Under the pieces are notes generated by a model. It was not told where the DNA came from. It saw nothing but the letters and a program-made list of their open reading frames with translations, and ran no database searches. A stretch of 64,000 bases of DNA from Xanthobacteraceae bacterium (GTDB taxonomy: Bacteria; Pseudomonadota; Alphaproteobacteria; Rhizobiales; Xanthobacteraceae), in NCBI GenBank assembly GCA_019746135.1, contig JAIESI010000160.1, positions 1-64,000 of the forward strand. The letters run 5' to 3'. A program made the translations under genes and the position numbers. Shown piece by piece: positions 43,065 to 45,564 of the stretch (position 1 is the first letter of the stretch; the number at the start of each line of letters is the position of its first letter).

Positions 43065-43358
43065 ATGCCTTTTGCCATCGTCCTCGCTCCAGAAGCCGCC
43101 GACGACCTCAGAAGGTTGCGGGCGAATGTCCGGGCGACGGTGCGGACTGCCCTCGAAACGCATCTGAGGCATGAGCCGGAGAAAACGAGCCGCAGCCGGG
43201 TCAAGCGGTTGCGGGGGCTGCTCCGGCCGCAGTACCGGCTACGCGTTGGTGAGGTTCGGGTGTTCTATGACGTTTCCGGCGCGACCGTCGAAATCTTGGC
43301 GATCGTGGCCAAATCGGAGGCCGAGTCATGGCTCGCACAGTTCGCAGATCCGGAGTGA
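43065..43358 (+). CDS. Type II toxin, RelE/ParE family
   Basis: 'MPFAIVLAPEAADDLRRLRANVRATVRTALETHL...RLRVGEVRVFYDVSGATVEILAIVAKSEAESWL'. Confidence 0.9.
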   Translation: MPFAIVLAPEAADDLRRLRANVRATVRTALETHLRHEPEKTSRSRVKRLRGLLRPQYRLRVGEVRVFYDVSGATVEILAIVAKSEAESWLAQFADPE

Positions 43359-43603
43359 AAGAAGTTCCACTGTCCGAAATCAAGGACGATCTGTCTCGGT
43401 TTCTTCGAGAGGCGGAGACGCAGGAGATCGTCATTACCCGCCACGGCAAGCCGGCCGGCGTGCTGATCGGTTTCGAGTCCGAGGAGGACTGGTTCGAATA
43501 CCGTCTCGAGCACGATCCCCGCTTCTTGCGCCGCATCGAGCAGGCACGGAACAGCCTGCGCGCGGGGCGGGGCATCAGTCTCGAAGACGTTGTACCGGAA
43601 TAG
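43328..43603 (+). CDS. Type II antitoxin, Phd/YefM family
   Basis: 'KEVPLSEIKDDLSRFLREAETQEIVITRHGKPAGVLIGFESEEDWFEYRL'; overlaps toxin by 31 bp. Confidence 0.9.
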   Translation: MARTVRRSGVKEVPLSEIKDDLSRFLREAETQEIVITRHGKPAGVLIGFESEEDWFEYRLEHDPRFLRRIEQARNSLRAGRGISLEDVVPE

Positions 43604-44045
43604 TGCGCCGCGGCGCACAGCCGTCGGAGCACGCGCGATAGAACGCCAGGCCACCAATTTTGGGGTCAGAAGTTCGAATTCCGCCATCAAGATGCGTTGT
43701 TTCGACTGGAGGTCCGTTCAACTTCTTCCCCGACCCTACGGCTGCGGCTATCGGTAGAGCGCCAATGACATGTGGGGGGGGGGCGAATGCTGACGGGCGA
43801 GCGCCGGGTCGAACCGGTGCAGCCATGGCCAGTCTCCGCACGCTTGAGGCCGGAAGCGGTCAAGCATTCTGCCTTGTCAACGCAAGAAGAATACCGGCCT
43901 TCGCAGCAGCGATTGGTGTCGCCGCGCTCGGGGCTGATGGGTTGACTCCTGCGGTCTGTTCTTTATTTGTTCTATTCATCCTGCTTAGTCGAGGGGCTCA
44001 ACCGGTGGGAACCATTGGCAGAAGCAGGTGCGGCGCCTGCGCGTC

Positions 44046-44353
44046 CGGCCGATCCAACCGGACTCTCGGGGCGCCTCGGGACCCCGTCTCGCGGGCACTA
44101 CGACCCCGCGCGCAGGGAGCTCTGCTGGACTGCCGGGTGAAAGCGCCAGTAACCCGGCAGGGAAGCACGGCCTGAGGTGTGTGAGGCGAGGCCTCACGAA
44201 AACGCCGTGGTGGAGCGCCGAAAGGCGAGGGTCTCCGATCGCAAGGGGACTCGAACACGCCCGAAGGCGTGTTCTCCGGGCCGCACGCAACCGCCCGGAG
44301 GGGTTCGCAAAACCCCTGCGCCTTTCGGCGCTCCGCTCCCCTCTTCAAGAGGG
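44046..44353. repeat. Array of consecutive intergenic hairpins (candidate structured RNA or repeat cluster)
   Basis: Perfect stems in series, e.g. CTGCCGGGT/ACCCGGCAG, GTGAGGC-GAG-GCCTCAC, CGCC-GAAA-GGCG, GAACACGCC-CGAA-GGCGTGTTC, TCCGGG/CCCGGA, AGGGGTT-CGCAA-AACCCCT, GCGCC-TTTC-GGCGC, CCCTCTT-C-AAGAGGG. Confidence 0.7.
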
Positions 44354-44425
44354 TGAGCAACGCGAAAGAGCTTCGCAAATCCCGGGCGCAAGACGCCGCG
44401 GCAACGAGGGCCAATGCCCGCACGT

Positions 44426-45412
44426 CTAAATCTTCGACAGCTCGTAGGTCGGCTTGGCGAACATCTCGTCCAGCGCCACCTGCCGCACCGACAATCCCTG
44501 CTTGAACGAATACCGCGCCAGCGTCTCCAGCGGCAGCTTGTTCTCATGTGCGCCATACGACCAGTAGTCCTCGCCCATCACCTTGCGCGCATGATCGTAG
44601 GCGTAGACCGGCCACGGCAGCGTCGCGTGCAGATGCCCGATCTGGCCGAGCTCGTGCAGGCACAGCGCCTTGGCCTTCAGGTACGCCTTGTAGACGCTGA
44701 CCGCGACCCACGGATATTTCTCGACGATCGATTTGCGGATGCCGATGGCGTGCATGATCGGGAACAGCTTGGTCTTTTTGAAATACGCCTCTTCGGCCGC
44801 CGGATAATCCGCAAACAGCCGTCCGACGTTCGGCGCGCCTTGCAGAAAGCACGACGGCGCGCGCGCGCTCAGCAGCCCGTCGATCTCGCCCTTGGCCAGC
44901 ATGTCGGAGATCGTCCGGTCGGCCGGAACGGGCTTGATGTCGATGTCCGGCGGCAGCGTGATCTTGGCGCGCTCCTCGCGGCCGGGCTCTTCCAGCCCGC
45001 CGCGCCGCCATTTGATGTCGCGTGGAGCCACGCCGTATTCGTCCTCGAGCATGCCGCGCACCCAGACGTTCGCCGTCATCTGGTATTCGGGCAGGCCGAT
45101 GGTCTTTCCCTTCAGGTCGGCCGGCGTCTTGATGCGGTCGGTGCGCACGTAGACGCTGGAATGCCGGAACAGCCGCGACACGAAGGCCGGAATGGCGACG
45201 TAGTGGTTGTCGCCGCGCGACAGCGTCACGAGGTAGCTGCTCATCGATATCTCGGTGACGTCGAACTCCTGGAACTTGAATGCGCGATGAAACGATTCCT
45301 CCGGCTCCAGCGCCACCGCCGTCACGTCGCAGCCTTCGATCGGCGCGCGGCCGTCGAACAGCGCCGCGGTGCGGTCGTAGTTGCAGACGGACATGCTGAG
45401 CTCGACGGCCAT
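44426..45412 (-). CDS. 4,5-dihydroxyphthalate decarboxylase-like protein, paralog 2
   Basis: 'MAVELSMSVCNYDRTAALFDGRAPIEGCDVTAVALEPEESFHRAFKFQEFDVTEISMSSYL'. Confidence 0.82.
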   Translation of the reverse strand: MAVELSMSVCNYDRTAALFDGRAPIEGCDVTAVALEPEESFHRAFKFQEFDVTEISMSSYLVTLSRGDNHYVAIPAFVSRLFRHSSVYVRTDRIKTPADLKGKTIGLPEYQMTANVWVRGMLEDEYGVAPRDIKWRRGGLEEPGREERAKITLPPDIDIKPVPADRTISDMLAKGEIDGLLSARAPSCFLQGAPNVGRLFADYPAAEEAYFKKTKLFPIMHAIGIRKSIVEKYPWVAVSVYKAYLKAKALCLHELGQIGHLHATLPWPVYAYDHARKVMGEDYWSYGAHENKLPLETLARYSFKQGLSVRQVALDEMFAKPTYELSKI

Positions 45413-45564
45413 TTTCGTGTCTCCGGAGGTGCAGTGCGGAACGCCGCGGCACCATACCGCAATTGCATGTCCGCCGCGTTGACGGGTGTTTTCGGGGTGG
45501 CGATAGTAGTCTGGCATCGTTCAAAAGCGCACGCCCAAACGCGGGCTTAAGGCACATACCATCC

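Follow-up and report, generated by a model that had tools for sequence, protein, structure and literature searches.

The locus and its element

The window analysed here is a stretch of 64,000 nucleotides of DNA from a bacterium of the family Xanthobacteraceae. On its plus strand, from 43940 to 44413, lies an element that consists of a promoter and a putative gene for a structured non-coding RNA, the limits of which were set by how far 15 full-length copies in the same genome remain homologous; the alignment of these copies starts at GGTTGAC (43940) and stops near 44413, and their flanks differ. The element at this locus is a class I copy. Its 5' edge is formed by a -35 hexamer, TTGACT (43942-43947), which is part of the GGTTGAC kept in nearly all copies and marking the start of homology, and a -10 hexamer, TATTTG (43964-43969), follows at a distance of 16 bases, a spacing found in 30 of 48 promoters. 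The -10 element falls within a LexA (SOS) box, GTTC-TTTATTT-GTTC (43958-43972), which matches GTTCN7GTTC perfectly and overlaps the sigma-70-like promoter. The predicted RNA has a length of approximately 437 nt (43977-44413), with a start inferred from the promoter spacing and a 3' end inferred from the end of homology; neither end has been mapped. No tRNA was found in the window.

All of the RNA's predicted parts are likewise on the plus strand. At the 5' end, the hairpin domain P1 (43980-44028), which is supported by compensatory change, would bring together the arms CCTGCTT and AAGCAGG around a conserved inner hairpin, GAGGGGC...CCGG. The closing arms vary in a compensatory manner within the genome itself (UA in nine, CG in six), with other copies reading CCCCGCTC/GAGCGGGG, and in most copies of other genera the inner hairpin lies upstream of the model match. 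Domain A (44029-44210), captured by covariance model R1, has a closing stem and branched hairpins at 44043-44063, 44090-44110, 44130-44160 and 44181-44197. Domain B (44212-44334), which rests on covariance model R2 and on covarying helices 13-18, is a multi-branched structure closed by a 16-bp long-range helix, in which 44212-44227 pairs with 44319-44334 (GGAGCGCCGAAAGGCG/CGCCTTTCGGCGCTCC) around four hairpins (44229-44252, 44253-44274, 44276-44298 and 44299-44317). One pair of this helix is A-U in three copies, including the one at this locus (GAAA/TTTC), and C-G in 12 (GCAA/TTTG), with the long-range pairing retained. Beyond domain B are a 3' hairpin, GCTCCCCTCT...AGAGGGTGAGC (44335-44358), which takes a changed form in other copies, and a 3' segment (44362-44413) with a GCGAA/TTCGC hairpin and CCCGGGCGC...GCCGCGGCAAC, which runs to the end of homology and is the part in which the structure is least certain.

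An earlier note on this DNA had drawn attention to the hairpins of 44046-44353, and the nine stems that it named are all in place, the last one shifted by a single base (44339-44353). The region has six non-overlapping perfect hairpins (arm of at least 6, loop of 3-15) as against 1.5 +/- 1.1, and a maximum of 5, in 300 dinucleotide shuffles, and the segment 44046-44360 folds with a minimum free energy of -181.4 kcal/mol (z = -6.5), a value matched by none of 100 shuffles. The hairpins are thus real, but the interval covers only the central part of a unit that is about 470 bp long, since homology among the copies begins at 43940 and ends near 44413. Two of the stems, CGCC-GAAA-GGCG (44216-44227) and GCGCC-TTTC-GGCGC (44318-44331), which had been taken for separate hairpins with GNRA-like loops, are better read as a single long-range helix, that of domain B, to which each supplies one arm. 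The promoter, the LexA box, the long-range helix and the 5' hairpin domain are all additions to what had been noted before.

Copies in the genome of origin

The genome of origin was searched as an assembly of 7.7 Mb in 395 contigs, with an estimated contamination of 8.5 %. A BLASTN search with 43980-44430, the kind of search by which copy number was to be established, confirmed a multi-copy element with 34 places, the full-length copies being 70-79 % identical and many others being cut at contig ends. At least 24 further copies or fragments exist beyond this locus; covariance model R1, for domain A, gave 26 matches, and model R2, for domain B, gave 52, part of which are the same places on the other strand. 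Because contigs break at repeats, the copy number is a lower bound. The related elements of this genome fall into approximately four classes, which have in common portions of the 5' domain, the long GGAGCGCC...GGCGCTCC helix and the 3' segment.

Several individual copies deserve mention. A class II copy on contig C147 (L221) has an insertion of about 180 bases between the arms of the long helix, and on contig C380 two copies (L012 and L016) lie about 1.5 kb apart with a TctC-type receptor gene between them. A segment like GGGCTGTTTGACA..TGTGAATC is common 3' of the ends of many elements, examples being L202, L209, L227, L235 and L239.

Conservation of the RNA fold

For the 15 full-length copies, RNAalifold gave a consensus of -156 kcal/mol with 113 pairs, 32 of which have both sides changed in some copy, and 97.8 % of cells were paired when counted on the fixed structure. 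Cells with both sides changed numbered 129 in these copies, compared with 44 in shuffled alignments and 2-24 when the partner was slid, a level reached by none of 500 shuffles. Across genera, 67 matches (65 distinct) for domain A gave 473 such cells, compared with 134 when shuffled and 60-102 when slid, again with 0 of 500 shuffles reaching the observed level, although this alignment was guided by the covariance model and hence leans towards it. The stems are therefore kept by compensatory change, which is the covariation for which the earlier note had proposed to look. Entire hairpins are also exchanged for unrelated sequence, as where GAACACGCC-CGAA-GGCGTGTTC at this locus is GTCCCTTCCGCTGAAGGGAC in other copies, and three other genomes, each aligned separately, gave the same architecture (-245, -204 and -208 kcal/mol).

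The fold is also specific to one strand. In all six sets with values, the consensus for the promoter (plus) strand is better than that for the minus strand by 14-38 kcal/mol, and the plus strand has 192 G-U pairs versus 8 A-C mismatches, with the caveat that the G-U count leans on the RNA folding program. No protein frame is conserved among the copies, in which most gaps are of 1, 2 or 4 bases; the observation that the region lacks convincing coding sense has held, and a protein-coding gene was rejected on the ground that frames are unconserved among copies. The suggestion of a structured RNA has gained strong support from the compensatory change, seen among copies as well as between genera, from the preference for one strand, from the fixed position of the promoter and from the lack of conserved coding sense, and it can be concluded with high confidence, as far as comparison of sequences permits, that these elements encode a family of structured non-coding RNAs under selection for their fold. 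The most conserved exposed parts of the RNA are the ACUACGA loop of GGGCACUACGACCC and a GCGAG-GAG-CUCGC hairpin, which are the first candidates for contact with a protein or another RNA.

Promoters and the LexA box

Nearly every copy has TTGAC(A/T) upstream of the RNA, and most have a -10-like hexamer 16 bases further on. In 16 class I copies, the promoter is overlain by a perfect GTTC-N7-GTTC in 12 cases and by a box with a one-base change in two, the remaining two being without a box. In Caulobacter, GTTCN7GTTC has been published as the SOS box (PMC9578287), and the genome's own lexA gene (L124) is preceded by GAACAAGGATAGAAC, which is the GAACN7GAAC form of the same box. GGTTGAC is combined with GTTCN7GTTC at 37 places in this genome and with GAACN7GAAC at 16, for a total of 53, as compared with 0 for a reversed-pattern control and with 0-2 in each of ten sister genomes. 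Five of the 16 GAAC-form places resemble class I copies whose GGTTGAC was matched on the opposite strand.

When 48 distinct promoters with a -35 element and a box were extracted, 44 fell into one similarity cluster of structured elements, and nearly all of the places examined lead into structured RNA elements of the approximately four related classes. The box stands at five different offsets from the promoter start (12, 16, 18-19, 20-22 in the GAAC form and 31-32), and the -10 element is mostly 16-17 bases from the -35 element across the box-carrying promoters. That varied offsets lead to the same outcome argues for repeated selection of LexA control, rather than for inheritance alone. With a LexA box lying across most of the promoters, repression of the copies by LexA and their induction by DNA damage are to be expected; in the absence of transcript or binding data, LexA control in this genome is an inference, held with fairly high confidence. 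It is not a property of the family as a whole, since the box is missing or altered in some class I copies and other promoters are used in other genera.

Among the matches to the promoter pattern in sister genomes are one element of this RNA family (in G004) and an imuA-like frame with the same layout, the name resting on visual inspection of the translated frame; in Caulobacter, imuA belongs to the SOS genes. At two sister-genome loci (L186 and L192), a LexA-box promoter is followed by a small conserved frame, some 90-100 codons long, which is possibly an unnamed SOS gene. In the genome of origin, two truncated copies (L195 and L208) place a LexA-box promoter directly before an open reading frame, as if it had been captured.

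Distribution among relatives

Of 200 Xanthobacteraceae genomes, 41, from 19 of 47 genera, had matches to model R1 at E <= 1e-5, often many of them, the number per genome reaching at least 13. Model R3 gave matches in four genomes from two other families of the order (398 searched) and, apart from the genome of origin, none in genomes drawn from the class (385 searched). The carriers include Rhodoplanes sp. Cfx2-03 (G086), Rhodoplanes tepidamans DSM 9987 (G132) and two Hyphomicrobiales MAGs (G066 and G008); the copy that was read in R. tepidamans lacks a LexA box.

In other genera, promoters with TCCTA/TAGGA-like or TTATCCCCG motifs replace the LexA box. One type, seen upstream of L065, L071, L089-L099 and L060-L086, has TTGACA with TCCTA...TAGGA or GACTATAGTC-like palindromes, for which there is no known regulator; another, upstream of L068, L100-L106 and L153-L169, has TTATCCCCGC, which forms an inverted repeat in some copies, and a TATAAT-like -10 element. 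The copies L071 and L089-L099 of one genome (G157) sit inside clusters of several other dispersed repeats.

Genomic surroundings and mobility

The genes beside the copies are unrelated to one another, including transporter receptors, an AMP-binding enzyme, a response regulator and a luciferase-like enzyme, among others. The downstream gene, as found by a composition heuristic, is convergent with the RNA in 27 of 47 cases, and this is so at the present locus, where the gene occupies 44426-45517. Eight sister genomes have orthologues of that gene, with 77-84 % identity over about 2 kb; in these eight relatives, homology reaches no further than the gene's stop codon, and the element is absent at the orthologous place. 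As the relatives align to the downstream gene only up to that point, they do not furnish a clean empty site. Just upstream of the element, at 43065-43603, is a pair of genes for a ParE-like toxin and a Phd/YefM-like antitoxin.

No partner protein was found beside the copies, and neither a transposase nor phage genes were seen among the identified neighbours. No reverse transcriptase or nuclease gene lies beside the RNA, the neighbours that were tested having ordinary, different domains or none, and a retron or the RNA of an RNA-guided nuclease was ruled against for lack of such neighbours. BLASTN against plasmid and phage collections returned no match to the element, and viral contigs, which were scanned with one exact pattern only, likewise gave none. 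Inspection of the ends of copies by eye revealed no terminal inverted repeats or target duplications, and an empty site matched on two flanks was not available. Taken together, unrelated gene surroundings, the lack of a partner protein, variable copy number and absence at the orthologous place make non-autonomous mobile DNA the most likely nature of the elements. Confidence in their mobility is moderate; it is inferred from indirect evidence, a terminator, terminal inverted repeats and target duplications being undemonstrated.

Interpretation

The earlier note had left the choice between a structured RNA and a mosaic of REP-like elements. The second idea is correct insofar as the sequences are dispersed, multi-copy and intergenic, but the unit spans 470 bp and carries a promoter of its own, which sets it apart from a mosaic of short REPs. 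It might nonetheless be a DNA-level element of the REP or MITE kind, the hairpins of which matter as DNA, for a transposase or in recombination, and the promoter of which is incidental. GC-rich palindromes, a copy number that varies by species, multiple intergenic copies and the two copies that flank a single gene on contig C380 would all be compatible with this, which nevertheless appears unlikely: a correctly spaced -35 and -10 pair holds a constant position in nearly all copies, whereas the remaining spacer drifts, and both the better fold of the promoter strand and the excess of G-U over A-C (192 versus 8) would be needless for a DNA hairpin. Moreover, terminal repeats were not seen and the identified neighbours lack a transposase.

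Two other proposals accept the RNA but assign it a different role. In one, it is a large RNA of the GOLLD/ROOL kind, from prophages or satellites, that builds RNA-only assemblies. Its similar size and ornateness recommend this, and SOS control would suit prophage induction, but the lack of any Rfam, phage, plasmid or (with one exact pattern) viral match, the absence of phage neighbours and the dozens of copies per genome leave it very improbable. There is even less reason to believe that the RNA is the 5' leader or riboswitch of a neighbouring gene; although a promoter does precede a structured RNA, and truncated copies L195 and L208 lie just before a gene, downstream genes are unrelated and are convergent in 27 of 47 cases, this locus included.

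What is observed is a multi-copy family, the conservation of an RNA structure on the strand of the promoter, and the promoter and box themselves. The explanation that we consider quite probable, with transcription, LexA control and mobility being inferred, is that of a family of dispersed, self-contained, DNA-damage-inducible structured RNA genes, which are most likely non-autonomous mobile DNA. Each copy would have its own promoter directly before a GC-rich, multi-branched non-coding RNA of approximately 430 nt. LexA bound over a promoter blocks transcription, and RecA filaments trigger LexA cleavage. LexA over most of the promoters in the genome of origin would keep the copies off, and, upon DNA damage, RecA-driven self-cleavage of LexA would turn on together some fifty copies of approximately four related classes. 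The elements would spread as non-autonomous mobile DNA, with the RNA as the selected product. How the RNA acts is a guess; its conserved hairpin loops may let it work in trans, or it may serve its own spread during SOS repair, and confidence in any particular function is low. A bolder version, in which some fifty mobile RNA genes make up a large share of the SOS regulon and damage releases a burst of large structured RNAs, acting in trans or self-spreading, selfish or regulatory and without a protein partner, is offered tentatively and might well fail.

Relation to known systems

A search of all families in Rfam 15, at the gathering threshold and at permissive E-values, gave no match to the element or its hairpin region, the GOLLD, ROOL and OLE models included, and a search of the literature for an SOS-controlled repeat or RNA of this kind brought up nothing matching. 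The RNA family thus seems undescribed, a statement that rests on Rfam 15 and on the literature searched and does not exclude that it has been seen before. To our knowledge, new families of large structured RNAs are seldom discovered, and the known ones mostly have few copies per genome. A family that unites a large and highly structured RNA, dozens of dispersed copies, a promoter of its own and LexA control reached through several promoter layouts would, if the interpretation is true, represent a novel type of SOS target and possibly also of mobile RNA gene.

OLE, GOLLD and ROOL (PMC12286853) are similar in being long, multi-branched non-coding RNAs with covarying helices, from which the present element is set apart by the lack of an Rfam match, dozens of dispersed copies, LexA-type promoters and the absence of any phage link found. 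REP/BIME, ERIC and RIME-type repeats and MITEs are, like it, non-autonomous, intergenic, multi-copy and hairpin-rich; unlike them, it has a sigma-70-like promoter at a fixed place and a strand-specific RNA fold, with terminal inverted repeats not shown. Br-REP1 and Br-REP2 of Bradyrhizobium (PMC5082802) are also dispersed palindromic intergenic sequences, in related Alphaproteobacteria, but they are short, have a different consensus and have no LexA box described, whereas the element here has its own promoter and a length of about 470 bp. Neither published consensus string (CCGGAATCTCGAGATTCCGG or CGAGATTCCGGGTTCGGCTCTT...) occurs in 43940-44413, and identity with Br-REP was rejected because the sequences differ. 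The BRE repeat of Bordetella, with the sRNA bprJ (PMC3110155), likewise ties a dispersed repeat to a small RNA, but it is a betaproteobacterial repeat of about 90 bp, often in tandem, for which no LexA control has been described. Finally, SymE/SymR of Enterobacteria (PMC1891008) resembles the present family in being a LexA-controlled locus with an RNA part; it is, however, a single toxin/antisense locus, whereas the structured RNAs here number about fifty, are dispersed and lack a conserved frame.
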